64,000 bases of DNA from a bacterium (GTDB lineage Bacteria; Cyanobacteriota; Vampirovibrionia; Gastranaerophilales; Gastranaerophilaceae), in contig JAGAJM010000011.1 of NCBI GenBank assembly GCA_017626055.1, positions 1 through 64,000 of the forward strand, in the 5' to 3' direction. The notes under the pieces are model-generated. The model made no database searches and was not told the origin of the DNA. It saw nothing but the letters and a program-made list of their open reading frames with translations. Below are positions 3,287 through 54,608 of this stretch, in pieces. The position numbers and the translations under genes are program-made. The stretch's first letter is position 1; each line of letters starts with the position of its first letter.

Positions 3287-3321
3287 ATATTACAAAATGT
3301 TTATAAAAACCTTGTTATTAT

Positions 3322-3349
3322 TTGTTTTCAATTGTATTTATTTTATAAT
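3322..3349 (+). promoter_or_regulatory. Promoter for dnaN
   Basis: TTGTTT (3322-3327), a 16-bp spacer and TATAAT (3344-3349) precede AAGGAG and the dnaN ATG. Confidence 0.6.
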
Positions 3350-3376
3350 AATCTTAATAATAGAAGGAGTTAGGGA

Positions 3377-4498
3377 ATGAAATTCATTGTAAGAAAAGAG
3401 GATTTATTTAACGGGATTAAAATTGTTGAACGTGCAACTTCTCAAAAAGCAGTTCAGCCAGTTTTGTATAATATTTTGATTGAAACTTTAGATAATAATC
3501 AAATTAGATTGACTGCAACAGATTTAGTTTTAACAGTTATTACAACTGTTGATGCTCAAATTGAACAAGCTGGTAAAATAACATTACCTGCAAGAAAGTT
3601 GAACGAAATTGTTTCTAAATTAGGTAATGATTTAGTTACTTTTGAATGTGAAGACAATGGCGTAAACGTAAATATTTCTTGTAATAAATCAAAATTTGAT
3701 ATCATTGGTATCACTGCAAATGAATTTCCTCCAGAGGTTTCAAATTATGAATTAGATGAATCAAAATGTTTTGATGTCGAATTAAAACCATTCCTAAAAG
3801 CTATTAGACAAGCAGGTTTTGCTGCTGCAAGCTATGAAGTAAGTAATCTTTTATCTGGTATTGTTTGTGATTTTTCTAATGGTATTTTAGAGATTGCTTC
3901 AACAGATGGTAATAGACTTGCACGTGTTAGAGAAAAAATAAATTCTGATATTACAGAACAAACTCAGTTGATTATTCCATCAAGAACACTTAATGAATTT
4001 ATGAAAATGGGTGCATTGATTGACGATGAAACAATAAAAATATGTAAAGATAAATCTACAATTGTTTTAAAATCAGAAAAAACTCTTACAATTTCAAGAC
4101 TTTTAGAAGGTCAATTCCCTAAATATAATCAATTAATTCCTTCAGCAAGCCCAAAACAAGCAGTTGTAAATGTATCTCAATTAATCTCAGCATTAGAAAG
4201 AGTTTCTGTAATGGTTAATGATAAAACAAGTATTGTTAAAATGCACTTTGCAGATAATGAATTAACTCTTTCTGCTGATACTCCAGATTCAGGTAAATCA
4301 GAAGATAAAATTGATATTCAATACACTTCAGAAGAATTGTTAATTGCGTTTAATTACAAATTTGTTCTTGATGCATTAAGAATTATTGAAAGTGATGAAG
4401 TTGTTATTGGTTTGAATGCTAGCTTATCTGCAACAGTATTAAAACCAAATAGTGAAGATGATTTTATCTGTTTAATTATGCCTGTTCAAATCAGATAA
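3377..4498 (+). CDS. dnaN: DNA polymerase III beta sliding clamp
   Basis: A 373-residue protein of normal length for the beta clamp, made of three similar clamp folds. Family landmarks are the N-terminus MKFIVRKEDLFNGIK, PVLYNILIE, TDLVLTVIT, ASTDGNRLARV and the C-terminal CLIMPVQIR, close to the canonical MPMRL-type end that shapes the partner-binding cleft. It encircles DNA and tethers the replicative polymerase and other clamp-binding proteins. An AAGGAG ribosome site and its own promoter precede it. dnaA and recF are not adjacent in this window, unlike the dnaA-dnaN-recF order of Firmicutes and proteobacteria. Confidence 0.97.
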   Translation: MKFIVRKEDLFNGIKIVERATSQKAVQPVLYNILIETLDNNQIRLTATDLVLTVITTVDAQIEQAGKITLPARKLNEIVSKLGNDLVTFECEDNGVNVNISCNKSKFDIIGITANEFPPEVSNYELDESKCFDVELKPFLKAIRQAGFAAASYEVSNLLSGIVCDFSNGILEIASTDGNRLARVREKINSDITEQTQLIIPSRTLNEFMKMGALIDDETIKICKDKSTIVLKSEKTLTISRLLEGQFPKYNQLIPSASPKQAVVNVSQLISALERVSVMVNDKTSIVKMHFADNELTLSADTPDSGKSEDKIDIQYTSEELLIAFNYKFVLDALRIIESDEVVIGLNASLSATVLKPNSEDDFICLIMPVQIR

Positions 4499-49100: not shown

Positions 49101-51071
49101 TTGAAATTTCATAAAATTACTAAACAATTATTGTTAGCAGTAATCTTGGTTATGATGACACAGACAAATGTTGTCGCTATGGATGATGTATGGGGCGGAA
49201 TGGGTCTTTCAGAAGAGGCTGTTCAGGATGTTCCACGTCCTAGTGATATGTTTAAAAGCCAAGATGGTTCTGCTACTTCTCAAACTCAAACAAGTTCAGA
49301 AACCCCAGTAGATAAAGAATTAAGACTTATTAAAGATATTGAAATTTATGGTCTAAATTCTGTTGCAGAACACGAAATCAGAGAAAAAATCCAAATGAAG
49401 CAAGGTGGAACTTATTCTCGTGATTTGTTACAAACAGATTTAAAAACTATCTATCAAATGGGTTATTTTACAGAAAAAATGAAAGCTATTCCGTCTAAAA
49501 ATGAAGATGGTTCAGTTACTGTAAAAATTGTTGTTGAAGAAAATATCCCAGTTAAAGATTTTACTATTGAGGGTAATACAGTTATTCCTATTGAAGATAT
49601 TTTAGCAACCTTAAATGATATGAAAGGTAAGCCTCAAAATATCGCTCAATTAAATATTGCAATTTCTCAAATTCAAGAATTATATACTTCAAAAGGTTAC
49701 ATTTTAGCTCGAATTGATTCAGTTACAGATGATCCAGATGGTACTATCAATATTAGTATCAAAGAAGGTGTTATCGACAAAATTATGATTGAAGGTAATG
49801 AAAAAACCAAAGATTATGTTGTTGCTCGTAACATTTTGACTGAACCAGGAATGATTTATAATGAAAATCTTATCAAAGAAGATTTGGTTAGATTGTATGC
49901 AACTCAAGCGTTCAAAGATGTAACTCGTGAAATTGAACCAAGTGAAGAAATTCCAGATGCATACGATATCACAATCAAAATCCAAGAACAAAGAACTGCT
50001 AGTATCTCTGTTGGTGGTGGTGTTGATACAGTTACTGGTTTGTTTGGTTCTATGGGTATTACTGAAACTAACTTCCGTGGCAGAGCTGAAAGAATTTCTT
50101 TAACAGGTTTGGTTGGTACTGGGGTTATGTTGAATGACTCATCAGTTAAAGACCATATGAATATTCAAGCTGAATTGAGTTATTTTAAACCATATTTTTA
50201 TAATGCAGATACTTCTTTAAATAACAGAATCTTCTTTAGAGATTTTGGTTCATACCAAATTCCACTTGCTATTGAAAGAAGAATTGGTGCAGAAATGACA
50301 GTTGCACACAGACTCAAAAAGAATAGACATGCAACAGCATCTTTCAGTTTAGGTCTTGAAAATATTGATGTTCGTGAAGGCGATTTCAATGGTATTTCAA
50401 GAATGTATCAACGATACAATATTCCAATTGCAGAACGTGCTAAACAGTTAGAGGGCGGATTATTCTTATCTTTAAGTCCTGCATTGATTTACGATACAAG
50501 AGATTCTGCGACTGTAACAAGACATGGTACAATGGCTAGTATCAGATTTGATGAAAACTTTGGCTTAGATGGATTTGATAAAACAAACGGAAAACTTACA
50601 GGTATGATTAAACAATATATTCCTGTTGGTAAAAAGTCATCTTTATCATTCACAGCTAAAGGGGGTGGAGCTATCCATGGCGATATTCCAGAAGTTATGG
50701 CATATCGTGTAGGGGGTCCATATACTGTTAGAGGTTTCAAAATGAGTGGTGTTGGTACTGGTGATGCTTTTATCATGGGTTCTGCTGAATTTGCAACACC
50801 AATTCCATTTATGGATAGAACAAGAATTTCATTCTTACATAACATTAGATTCACAGTTTGGGCTGATGCAGGTAAAGTATTCGATGGCACAGTTTCAAAC
50901 AAAATTTACGACAGACCTGAATATGCGGTATCTGCCGGTGTTGGTTTGAAAGTATTTATCCCAGGTATGGGTCCTTTATCAATCGACTATGGTATTCCGC
51001 TTACAAATGCGGGTAGAAATGGCTCAGACCATGGTTACTTCACATTCGGTGTAGGTGATTTATTATACTAA
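49101..51071 (+). CDS. bamA: Omp85/BamA-type outer-membrane assembly protein
   Basis: A 656-residue protein with a signal peptide (about 1-26). Three POTRA domains follow (about 75-150, 152-230, 232-310; for example IKDIEIYGLNSVAEHEI and VIDKIMIEGNEKTKDYVV), then a 16-strand barrel with the lid-lock VRGF motif (GGPYTVRGFKMSG). Proteobacterial BamA has five POTRA domains and cyanobacterial Omp85 three, so this supports a cyanobacterial-type envelope. It inserts beta-barrel proteins into the outer membrane. The start is TTG with AAGG about 10 bases upstream; no ATG would keep the full signal peptide. Confidence 0.93.
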   Translation: MKFHKITKQLLLAVILVMMTQTNVVAMDDVWGGMGLSEEAVQDVPRPSDMFKSQDGSATSQTQTSSETPVDKELRLIKDIEIYGLNSVAEHEIREKIQMKQGGTYSRDLLQTDLKTIYQMGYFTEKMKAIPSKNEDGSVTVKIVVEENIPVKDFTIEGNTVIPIEDILATLNDMKGKPQNIAQLNIAISQIQELYTSKGYILARIDSVTDDPDGTINISIKEGVIDKIMIEGNEKTKDYVVARNILTEPGMIYNENLIKEDLVRLYATQAFKDVTREIEPSEEIPDAYDITIKIQEQRTASISVGGGVDTVTGLFGSMGITETNFRGRAERISLTGLVGTGVMLNDSSVKDHMNIQAELSYFKPYFYNADTSLNNRIFFRDFGSYQIPLAIERRIGAEMTVAHRLKKNRHATASFSLGLENIDVREGDFNGISRMYQRYNIPIAERAKQLEGGLFLSLSPALIYDTRDSATVTRHGTMASIRFDENFGLDGFDKTNGKLTGMIKQYIPVGKKSSLSFTAKGGGAIHGDIPEVMAYRVGGPYTVRGFKMSGVGTGDAFIMGSAEFATPIPFMDRTRISFLHNIRFTVWADAGKVFDGTVSNKIYDRPEYAVSAGVGLKVFIPGMGPLSIDYGIPLTNAGRNGSDHGYFTFGVGDLLY

Positions 51072-51093: not shown

Positions 51094-51546
51094 ATGAAAA
51101 ACTTAAAAATGATGGCTTTACTTATGGCTGCTGGCTTTGTATTCTCTACTGGATTATCTGCTAGTGCTGAAGTTGGATATATTGATTATCAAAAAGTTTT
51201 GACAAGTTATCCTGCTGCTCAACAAGCTGCAAAAGAAATTGATGCAAAAGGGCTTGAATTACAACAATATATGATTGACAAAGAAAAACAATACAAAGCG
51301 TTAGATACACCTTTGAAAAAACAAAACTTTGAAGCTCAAACTAGACAAGAATTGATTGCTAAAGAAGATGCGTTGATTAAATTAAGACAAACAAAAGAAT
51401 CTCAAATTCTTACTCAAGTTCAAACTGCAGCAAAATCTGTTATGGTTACTCAAAAACTTGATGCAGTTTTATCTAATCAAGTAATCTTTGTTGGTGGTGT
51501 TGATATCACTGATGCAGTTATTCAAAAATTGAAAGAAACAAAATAG
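51094..51546 (+). CDS. skp: Periplasmic chaperone Skp/OmpH
   Basis: A 150-residue protein. After the signal peptide (to SASA, about residue 25) it has VGYIDYQKVLTSYPAAQQAA, then two helical tentacles and a C-terminal strand (VIFVGGVDITDAVIQKL). It holds unfolded outer-membrane proteins on the way to BamA. AGGAGG lies upstream. The bamA-skp order is widespread. Confidence 0.92.
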   Translation: MKNLKMMALLMAAGFVFSTGLSASAEVGYIDYQKVLTSYPAAQQAAKEIDAKGLELQQYMIDKEKQYKALDTPLKKQNFEAQTRQELIAKEDALIKLRQTKESQILTQVQTAAKSVMVTQKLDAVLSNQVIFVGGVDITDAVIQKLKETK

Positions 51547-51555
51547 GTTTGGCTT

Positions 51556-52317
51556 ATGAAAAACTATTCTGATGATGGCAGACAATATCATGTTGGATTA
51601 AAAGAAGGTGACATTGGAAAATATGTTATTCTTCCTGGTGACCCAAAACGTTGTGAAAAAATTGCACAGTATTTTGAAAATCCAGTTTTAGTGGCAGACA
51701 GACGTGAATATGTTACTTATACAGGTTATGTTGATGGTGAAAAAGTTAGTGTAACTTCTACTGGGATTGGTGGACCATCAGCGGCAATTGCGATGGAAGA
51801 ACTTGTAAAATGTGGTGCAGAAGTATTTATTCGTGTTGGTACATGTGGCGGTATGCAACTTGATATTAAAGGTGGTGATTTAGTTATCGCAACTGGAGCT
51901 ATTCGTGCTGAAGGTACAAGTAAAGAATACGCACCGATTGAGTTTCCTGCGGTTGCTGATTTTAGAATAGTTAATGCTTTAGTTGATGCGGCTGAAAATT
52001 TAGGCTATACACATCATACGGGCGTTGTTCAGTGTAAGGATTCTTTCTATGGTCAACATAGTCCAGAAACTAAGCCTGTTAGTTATGAATTGCAAAACAA
52101 ATGGGAAGCGTGGAAACGTTTAGGATGTTTGGCTTCTGAAATGGAATCTGCGGCATTATTTGTCGTTGCAAGTTACTTAAATGTAAAAGTAGGTTCAATT
52201 TTCTTGACTGTTGCGAACCAAGAAAGAGAAAAGTTAAGTCTTGAAAATCCTGTGGTTCACGATACTGAAAGAGCTATCAAAACTGCAATTGAAGCAATTA
52301 AAATTTTAAAAGGATAA
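51556..52317 (+). CDS. udp: Uridine phosphorylase
   Basis: A 253-residue nucleoside phosphorylase of the NP-I family, the same length as E. coli Udp. [17 protein letters not shown] binds phosphate, with [26 protein letters not shown] and RVGTCGGMQ, and [12 protein letters not shown] supplies ribose-binding Glu-Met-Glu. It releases uracil and ribose-1-phosphate for salvage. It follows skp by 9 bases and precedes the FlhA-like gene by 4. Confidence 0.9.
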
Positions 52318-52321
52318 GATT

Positions 52322-53797
52322 ATGTTTAGAAAAAACAGAATGGAATATGTTATCAAAACATGTTCAGGGGAAGATGCTCAAGAATTACAAAATTTGTTGA
52401 ATGAAATGTCAATGAATGGTTGGGATTTATACAGCATGCATGATGTAGGTGATGAAGAATCAGGTTCAGAATTGAACTGTATTTTTATGCGTCCTGCAAA
52501 ACAAGATTCTGCCTCTGAGTCTGACATAATCAATATTTCCGATTTTAAAAGTCAAATGGAAAAAATGCTTTCTCCTAAATTGACTGAATATGAACAATGT
52601 TTGGAAATTCAATCTCAAATCCGCAGACAAAAAGAAAAAATGAATAAGATTAAGGCTGAACTTGAAGGTGAAGCTCCAGCTTCAGTTTCAAGAAAAAAAC
52701 TTAATGACAAAATTTCTGCAGGGTTGAAAGAATTAGAAGATTTGAAGGCAAAATTAAATAAAGCAACATCACCAGATTTGATGTATTCAAAGCTTCATGA
52801 AGAAAAATTGACAATCTATTTGAGTGAAGAGCTTTTAGGTTTTGTAGATTCTGATAGAGATAATTCTGGAGAAGAATTGATTGCAGAAACTGTTAAATCA
52901 CGTCTTAGATTGACTGAGGAAAAAGGTTATATTATTCCAAAAGTTGTATTTAAAGATGATGAAAATCTTAATCCTTGCGAATTTAGTATCAGAATTCGTG
53001 GTATGGAAGTATTTAAGGCTGGTGTTTGCCCAAATCATTTGATGTTTTATGTTGATGAATTAAATACAAAAATCAAAAATTCTGTAAAAGCTATTGATGC
53101 AATTACTGATAGAGACGTTGTTTGGGTTGAAAAAGACAAGGCAAAAGACTTTTGGCAAAAAGGTTTGACGCCATCAGAATATATTTCAAAAGCATTGGAA
53201 TATGTTGCAGTAAAACATGTTGAAGATTTACTAGATTATGATGATATTGACAAGTATTTGGAAGTTGTTGAAAAAGAAAACGAGTTCTTAATAGAAAATA
53301 TTATTCCAGATTTGTTGACTTATTCTGATGTGAAATATCTTTTGACAAGTTTAATCAAAGAAAAAGTTTCAATTAAGAATATCACTTACATTTTTGAGAA
53401 AATTAATGATTTTGCTGAAGATGGAAGTAAAGCTGATATTCTAAACAAAATTCGCCTATCATTATCAAGACAAATTTGCAGAAGTTATGCAAATGAAGAC
53501 GGTGAAACAATTAGCGCATTTGAACTTTCTGAAAAGACTTATGCTGATATTGTTTTAGGTTGTGATGACAGTGAAGATTGTCTAATTAAAATTGATGGGG
53601 AGTTAGCTGAAAAATTAGCTGATAAAATCATTAGAAAATCTAAAAAATTAGGTATTCATGCGCCAAAATTGATTGTTCCAATGGAATATAGACAAATTTT
53701 CTTCACATTGTTATCTTTGTATTTAAACGATATTACTGTTTTAGCGCACGAAGAAGTTGGTTGCCTATTCAAAATTGACAATTTAGGCGATATTTAA
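52322..53797 (+). CDS. Soluble FlhA/SctV-like cytoplasmic-domain protein with DUF4177-like N-terminus
   Basis: A 491-residue protein without membrane segments. Residues 1-58 resemble DUF4177 (MEYVIKTCSGE...GWDLYSM). About 75-150 is a coiled coil. From about 160 to 485 it follows the C-terminal cytoplasmic domain of flagellar/type III export gates (FHIPEP): LRLTEEKGYIIPKVVFKDD, CEFSIRIRGMEVFKAGV, GLTPSEYISKALEYVAVKHVEDLL, YLLTSLIKEKVSIKNITYIFE, and the terminal LIVPMEYRQIF...ITVLAHEEV. In FlhA this part docks chaperone-substrate complexes. The FlhA N-terminal membrane half is missing. It is the last gene of the bamA-skp-udp run. The function is inferred to be adaptor-like. Confidence 0.75.
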   Translation: MFRKNRMEYVIKTCSGEDAQELQNLLNEMSMNGWDLYSMHDVGDEESGSELNCIFMRPAKQDSASESDIINISDFKSQMEKMLSPKLTEYEQCLEIQSQIRRQKEKMNKIKAELEGEAPASVSRKKLNDKISAGLKELEDLKAKLNKATSPDLMYSKLHEEKLTIYLSEELLGFVDSDRDNSGEELIAETVKSRLRLTEEKGYIIPKVVFKDDENLNPCEFSIRIRGMEVFKAGVCPNHLMFYVDELNTKIKNSVKAIDAITDRDVVWVEKDKAKDFWQKGLTPSEYISKALEYVAVKHVEDLLDYDDIDKYLEVVEKENEFLIENIIPDLLTYSDVKYLLTSLIKEKVSIKNITYIFEKINDFAEDGSKADILNKIRLSLSRQICRSYANEDGETISAFELSEKTYADIVLGCDDSEDCLIKIDGELAEKLADKIIRKSKKLGIHAPKLIVPMEYRQIFFTLLSLYLNDITVLAHEEVGCLFKIDNLGDI

Positions 53798-53804
53798 GAG
53801 AAAC

Positions 53805-54608
53805 TTATTTATCTTCTTGAGTGATACCTGTTTGATAACCTGGTACAAGTAGTGCTAGTGGGATAAATCTGCCTAATAATGAGCCAACAGATGATGATTT
53901 ATTCATCATTGAAATTGCCATACACAAGTCGTCAAAGTGTGGAGCAAAATCTGTTGCTCTAATTTCTCTATCTACTTCTTTTTTATAAAGTTTTTCGTTG
54001 ATGAAGTTAGAAACTTTGTTTCCAACATAAATTCCAACACCTAGGAACGCAATTGTACAAGCTGCGTTAGGTAGAACTTTCATAAATTTATTGGTGAAAT
54101 CTGCAGTTTTTTTCAATGCTTCATTTGAAATTTTGCTAAGGTTAAATTGTGGAACTGCATTTTCAATACGATTTTCATATTTGCCGTAAAGTCTTGCGCC
54201 TTGTCCTACTAAAAATACTGGAACAGCAATGTTGCCAACCATTTGGCTTAATATTTCACGTTGTTTTGCTTTGCGGTTTTCTTTTTTATCAACTAAACAA
54301 CCGCCAATAAAACCACCAGCAACAGAGCCTGCTGCAACTCCAAGAATTTCTTTTTCGTGATATTGGATTGATTCATTTACAGGCTTGTATTTGAAAATAG
54401 CCCAATCTTTTATTGGAGTTTTGAATATTTGTTTTGGATTTAGTGAAAATCCTTTTCTATGAGCAAGAAGTGCTAAAACAGGAGCAGTGCCTGCAATGGC
54501 AGAACCTAAAACAATAGCTTTTTGCTTCTTGTTCATATCTGTTTGAGCCCCATGTGCGGTAAAATTTGGTTGATTATTTAGGTTATATGAATTTACTCTA
54601 GTAATCAT
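53805..54608 (-). CDS. Lineage-type membrane protein of unknown function
   Basis: A 267-residue protein. The N-terminus MITRVNSYNLNNQPNFTAHG is an unusual polar opening followed by a basic stretch. Hydrophobic segments are near 30-46, 90-108 (GVAAGSVAGGFIGG), 123-135, 180-195 and 245-258. The gene is convergent with the FlhA-like gene, 7 bases apart. AGGAAAG precedes the ATG. Similar Asn-Phe-Thr/Lys-Gly openings occur on other unknown proteins in this window; the family is not recognised. Confidence 0.65.
   Translation of the reverse strand: MITRVNSYNLNNQPNFTAHGAQTDMNKKQKAIVLGSAIAGTAPVLALLAHRKGFSLNPKQIFKTPIKDWAIFKYKPVNESIQYHEKEILGVAAGSVAGGFIGGCLVDKKENRKAKQREILSQMVGNIAVPVFLVGQGARLYGKYENRIENAVPQFNLSKISNEALKKTADFTNKFMKVLPNAACTIAFLGVGIYVGNKVSNFINEKLYKKEVDREIRATDFAPHFDDLCMAISMMNKSSSVGSLLGRFIPLALLVPGYQTGITQEDK

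Follow-up and report, generated by a model that had tools for sequence, protein, structure and literature searches.

The window analyzed here, a 64,000-nucleotide stretch from a member of the Gastranaerophilaceae, raises the question of what a protein resembling the cytoplasmic half of the flagellar export gate FlhA is doing directly behind genes for outer-membrane biogenesis. The protein, P0001, is encoded by a 491-aa ORF with an ATG start (52322..53797, plus strand). The original prediction described a soluble FlhA/SctV C-domain in which a DUF4177-like domain and a coiled coil take the place of the transmembrane half, and this description was confirmed.

A soluble FlhA C-domain with a new N-terminus

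Positions 309-652 of the FHIPEP family (PF00771) aligned with residues 139-479 of P0001 (E 2.7e-46; 158.8 bits, the cut-off being 29.1). The full-length FlhA model TIGR01398 gave 145.9 bits, under its cut-off of 772, as half a protein would be expected to do. The top sequence match in the PDB was B. subtilis FlhA-C (E 1.1e-25). In an AlphaFold monomer model built from 24 orthologues (mean pLDDT 77.5), residues 157-491 (52790..53794, plus strand), corresponding to domains D1-D4, superimposed on nonameric V. parahaemolyticus FlhA-C (7amy) with a Z score of 31.0 over 329 residues at 2.6 A, SctV-C being a close runner-up. A Foldseek search of the model against FlhA-C/SctV-C structures likewise returned the match (E 5.8e-22). 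A hydropathy scan found no transmembrane or hydrophobic segment in P0001, in keeping with a PF00771 match that begins only at position 309, and the same scan found five hydrophobic stretches in the full FlhA of the same genome. P0001 is thus a soluble FlhA C-domain without the membrane half.

The N-terminal 60 residues (52322..52501, plus strand) form a DUF4177/Sp36-like beta-alpha-beta-beta domain with a pLDDT of 83 when modeled alone. The matches of P0001 itself lie under the curated cut-offs (DUF4177, 12.7 bits against 25; Sp36, 19.6 bits against 50); among the 24 orthologues, NCBIfam Sp36 matched 21 (best 1.3e-6) and DUF4177 14 (best 3e-4), each at an E-value of 0.1 or better. The fold search with this domain gave weak matches only, and the one to the KCTD5 C-domain (E 0.027) was too weak for a function to be drawn from it. 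Residues 89-148 (52586..52765, plus strand) are predicted from the AlphaFold model to form two coiled-coil helices (89-115 and 124-148). A fusion of FHIPEP with DUF4177 was not found in our literature search, within whose reach most subscription papers did not fall.

Nei-Gojobori dN/dS values, taken from estimable pairs with some others saturated, were about 0.03-0.08 for the FlhA-C part and 0.01-0.06 for the N-domain and coil, so that all three parts are under strong purifying selection. The absence of the membrane half might be taken for the mark of a truncated FlhA pseudogene or an assembly artefact, but full-length orthologues with the same architecture occur across the order and dN/dS is low, which makes the chance of either negligible. 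The protein was found in 142 of the 143 genomes from Gastranaerophilaceae, in most other families of the order, and in 57 of the 58 members in the order-wide genome set, the one without it being G055 (83% complete). A row-by-row look at 21 genomes with FHIPEP from the class's other orders showed no soluble form, only full-length FlhA or fragments lacking the N-domain. One orthologue, 57% identical, lies in a record titled 'uncultured Brachyspira sp.' (L179; ONYB01000166.1), probably a misnamed Gastranaerophilales bin. No literature treating Gastranaerophilales and FlhA together was found in a search that excluded most subscription papers, and this real, conserved protein is apparently undescribed.

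A probable separate export machine in the same genome

The original prediction regarded the protein as an orphan and reported no flagellar or type III genes in the window. The second statement stands at most within those bounds, and the first fails, as other contigs of the assembly (1.87 Mb, 96% complete) encode a full-length FlhA together with most of a flagellar-type export set. The second FHIPEP match of this genome is a full-length FlhA (715 bits) on contig 10, at the end of the run fliE-fliF-fliG-like-fliH-flhA (C10:25845-31738; L033:10846-16739), in which the FliG-like gene was assigned by its position and by a weak match to MgtE_N. Contig 23 carries FlhB with an NPTH motif (C23:140684-141709; L051) and, grouped together, FliO, FliP, FliQ, and FliR (L081:8074-10529), and contig 4 carries FliI, which scored above its cut-off (C4:87390-88691; L184). 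Two rod-protein matches are also present, the identity of which was read from a genus mate, G035, where they are FlgB- and FlgC-like and stand behind two FlgF/G-like genes. FliJ of this set is only weakly detectable by Pfam in this genome (16.7-17.7 bits). A second FliJ-like gene, together with an adjoining gene of unknown family that is FliK-like by position, was also seen (L219:1447-1920 and 1922-2761; L222:1420-1908 and 645-1430); the pair is weak in Pfam and probably belongs to the same set. Flagellin (PF00669) was found neither in this 96% complete genome nor in 34 of its 35 genus mates, and the single match sits in a bin with 6% contamination.

Elsewhere in the order, outside the Gastranaerophilaceae, flagellin-bearing genomes usually contain two FliP proteins and two full FlhA proteins, one scoring about 860-890 bits and the other 670-720. 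We refer to the true flagellar FlhA as FlhA1 and to the lower-scoring type as FlhA2. FlhA2 is the sole full FlhA kept in the genus of the window, and its relatives are present in other orders of the class as well. In our reading of the gene content, the FlhA2 set would be a second flagellar-type export machine, carried by flagellate families beside the flagellar set. Soo et al. (2014) interpreted the incomplete flagellar genes of non-motile Gastranaerophilales as flagellar loss (PMC4040986); we read these incomplete "flagellar" genes as probably belonging, at least in part, to a separate, conserved, rod-bearing export machine. The flagellar-loss view is open to reinterpretation for these common gut bacteria, and the second machine, to which P0001 probably belongs, may be the larger finding.

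In a tree of the C-domains, the soluble proteins formed a single clade (100/100) nested within that of FlhA2 (100/100), apart from FlhA1 and E. coli FlhA. Alignment and tree show that the soluble protein had one origin within the Gastranaerophilales, as a duplicate of the cytoplasmic portion of FlhA2, in which a small N-terminal domain followed by a coiled coil took the place of the membrane half; the tree rules out descent from the flagellar FlhA1. This bears on the proposal that the protein works with the true flagellum through FlhA1 and persists as a relic in flagellin-less lineages. The proposal gains from one genus of two genomes (g7) in which the soluble gene heads a fliJ-fliK-flgD-flgE run, and that run belongs with the flagellar genes and not with those of the FlhA2 machine; but the descent is from the other FlhA type, and strong purifying selection persists in flagellin-less lineages, as shown for the genus of the window. 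We consider it quite improbable.

Since nearly all of the order has FlhA2, its co-occurrence with the soluble protein does not distinguish a functional link from common ancestry. In G035 and G245 the soluble protein is encoded and no FlhA2 was found; fliF is missing from both and a flanking gene from G035, so a missing contig is the likely cause. We rejected these two genomes as natural FlhA2 knock-outs, an unassembled region being the simpler explanation. The exception within the family, G257, represents the converse case, having kept both FlhA2 and FliF while lacking the soluble protein, and it counts against a role of that protein in the FlhA2 machine.

Gene neighbourhood within and beyond the family

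All genes of the run lie on the plus strand: bamA, with Omp85 and POTRA regions (49101..51071; PF01103 1.1e-41; TIGR03303 7.1e-71, below its cut-off), a skp/OmpH-like periplasmic chaperone gene (51094..51546; PF03938 2e-13), and udp for uridine phosphorylase (51556..52317; TIGR01718 8.5e-102). The coordinates confirmed the predicted spacing of 4 bases between udp and the gene for P0001. Among the 74 Gastranaerophilaceae loci that were named and had enough sequence upstream of the soluble gene, udp lies directly upstream and bamA within 5 kb in all 74, and skp in 72, with gaps of mostly 2-5 bases. In families f2-f7 the bamA-skp-udp context is absent, and the neighbours of the soluble gene vary by family. 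The predicted outer-membrane biogenesis operon therefore holds for Gastranaerophilaceae and not for the other families: the envelope context is real but family-specific, just as the export-gene context is real but was seen in the one genus g7. A general outer-membrane role drawn from this context was rejected, since the context is conserved only within Gastranaerophilaceae.

Such tight linkage, together with the retention of the protein in genomes lacking flagellin, could indicate exaptation to an envelope function that has nothing to do with type III export, in which the protein is co-expressed with bamA, skp, and udp. However, in families f2-f7 the protein occurs with identical signatures outside this context, it is hard to see where a protein without a transmembrane segment would fit into outer-membrane assembly in the periplasm, and FlhA2 is still present; we judge this role unlikely. 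The same linkage also counts against the involvement of FlhA2, as the Gastranaerophilaceae gene always stands behind bamA-skp-udp and not beside type III secretion genes in the 74 loci.

The gene downstream of the soluble gene differs among the relatives read. In the window, a protein with a weak mechanosensitive-channel-like helix is encoded just downstream of P0001 on the opposite strand (53805-54608, minus strand). Family f3 has, downstream of the soluble gene, a conserved gene for a protein of unknown family, 276-307 aa long and with hydrophobic stretches (L063:10234-11157, L062:6635-7546, L065:5047-5877, L066:6737-7612, L070:1877-2791).

Loss of the docking dimple, retention of the linker plug, and a possible role

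In Salmonella FlhA, chaperone-substrate complexes dock at a dimple of D456, F459, and T490, and Trp-354 of the linker can enter the dimple of a neighbouring subunit in competition with the chaperones (PMC8166844); Gly-368 of the GYxLI motif is needed for the open-close motion (PMC9431611). These sites were transferred by alignment to 28 soluble, 26 FlhA2, and 18 FlhA1 proteins, with conservative changes in the dimple allowed. The dimple triad was intact in all 18 FlhA1 and all 26 FlhA2 proteins and in none of the 28 soluble ones; in the FlhA2 encoded by the genome of the window (C10:29630-31738) it consists of D458, Y461, and T490. In P0001, T262 (53105..53107, plus strand) replaces the aromatic F459, a position that is aromatic in 26/26 FlhA2 and 0/28 soluble proteins; K290 (53189..53191, plus strand) replaces T490, which is mostly replaced among the soluble homologues; and D259 (53096..53098, plus strand), equivalent to D456 and Asp in 27 of 28, is the sole dimple residue kept. 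The switch glycine followed the same pattern, present in 18/18 FlhA1 and 26/26 FlhA2 proteins and Ser in all 28 soluble ones (S168 in P0001; 52823..52825, plus strand). The linker had the opposite fate: a proline plus aromatic, P-x-x-M-Y in FlhA2, was found in 28/28 soluble and 26/26 FlhA2 proteins and in 0/18 FlhA1. In P0001, this plug is SPDLMY at residues 150-155 (52769..52786, plus strand), with P151, M154, and Y155 aligned to Salmonella FlhA 351, 354, and 355. Model confidence falls under 50 at residues 153-159, which fits a flexible binding motif but also an unreliable model, and conservation of the plug could reflect a structural need or nothing more than descent from FlhA2.

Further reduced FlhA-C derivatives (about 210-509 aa, with D1 and D3 and without the dimple-bearing D2) occur in several Gastranaerophilales genomes, some with membrane segments, and were not found in the genome of the window itself. 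With a tenth row, a broken FlhA1, left out, the P-aromatic linker is present in 8 of the 9 true members (L036:8146-9036, L044:8286-9143, L045:8972-9979, L046:8740-9372, L206:1537-2184 and 3304-4020, L207:972-2501, L208:851-1501, L209:1067-1924).

These replacements bear directly on the original proposal that the docking platform had been reused as a soluble adaptor, perhaps in protein targeting. Such a platform would gather substrates or chaperones in the cytoplasm and pass them to the FlhA2 gate; the complete D1-D4 fold and the retained aspartate agree with it, and the coiled coil could make oligomers. The fold thus stood, but the adaptor function was weakened by the loss of the dimple aromatic and of the switch glycine in every soluble protein and by the frequent replacement of T490. 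With both its dimple and its switch glycine lost, P0001 is itself unlikely to offer an ordinary surface for docking, and we hold the platform version to be rather improbable. In agreement with the original prediction, the protein is not a simple paralogue of the FlhA in the export set found elsewhere in its genome.

The reading that we prefer, with a probability of roughly 0.45, is that P0001 acts as a soluble accessory subunit of the flagellin-independent FlhA2 export machine, working on the gate in trans. We infer action on the gate from the descent from FlhA2 and the opposite fates of plug and receptor. A link to FlhA2 is supported by the near-complete FlhA2 machine without flagellin in the same genome and by the P-x-x-M/F-Y/F linker common to the soluble and FlhA2 proteins and not to FlhA1, and an export role by the position of the gene at the head of the g7 run. 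P0001 would meet the FlhA2 ring from the cytoplasm, and its linker plug (P151-x-x-M154-Y155) would insert into the dimple for chaperone docking that FlhA2 subunits have kept intact, much as the Salmonella FlhA linker can do in the neighbouring subunit, and such insertion might control when, or which, chaperone-substrate complexes dock. A bolder form of this reading, which we regard as possible but doubtful, would make P0001 a dedicated soluble regulator derived from the gate's own ring domain, one that lost the receptor, kept the plug, and gates FlhA2 in trans in an order-wide, flagellar-type secretion machine that persisted after the flagellum was lost and was mistaken for flagellar debris. 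If the accessory-subunit reading is true, P0001 would add a trans-acting subunit to a type III export gate, bear on how substrate docking is controlled there, and offer a case in nature where plug and receptor are separated.

Compared with known systems, the N-terminal 60 residues weakly resemble the Sp36/DUF4177 small proteins, of which sP36 of Methanosarcina mazei binds AmtB1 and GlnK1 (PMC10714827) and is a stand-alone protein of 61 aa, in contrast to the fusion with FlhA-C in P0001. With the FlhA/SctV cytoplasmic domain, P0001 shares the D1-D4 fold, a significant sequence match, and the FlhA2-type linker plug; it differs in lacking the membrane half, the dimple, and the GYxLI glycine, in carrying the N-domain and coiled coil instead, and in being encoded away from export operons in its family, beside a full FlhA. 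A parallel in kind is FlhX of Campylobacterota, a soluble paralogue of the FlhB C-domain, in which we know of no extra N-domain or coiled coil. FlhX appears with FlhB in a list of flagellar secretion-system proteins (PMC9321776). It resembles P0001 in being a free-standing paralogue of the cytoplasmic portion of an export-gate component, but it derives from FlhB and not from FlhA, and the two are of unrelated origin.
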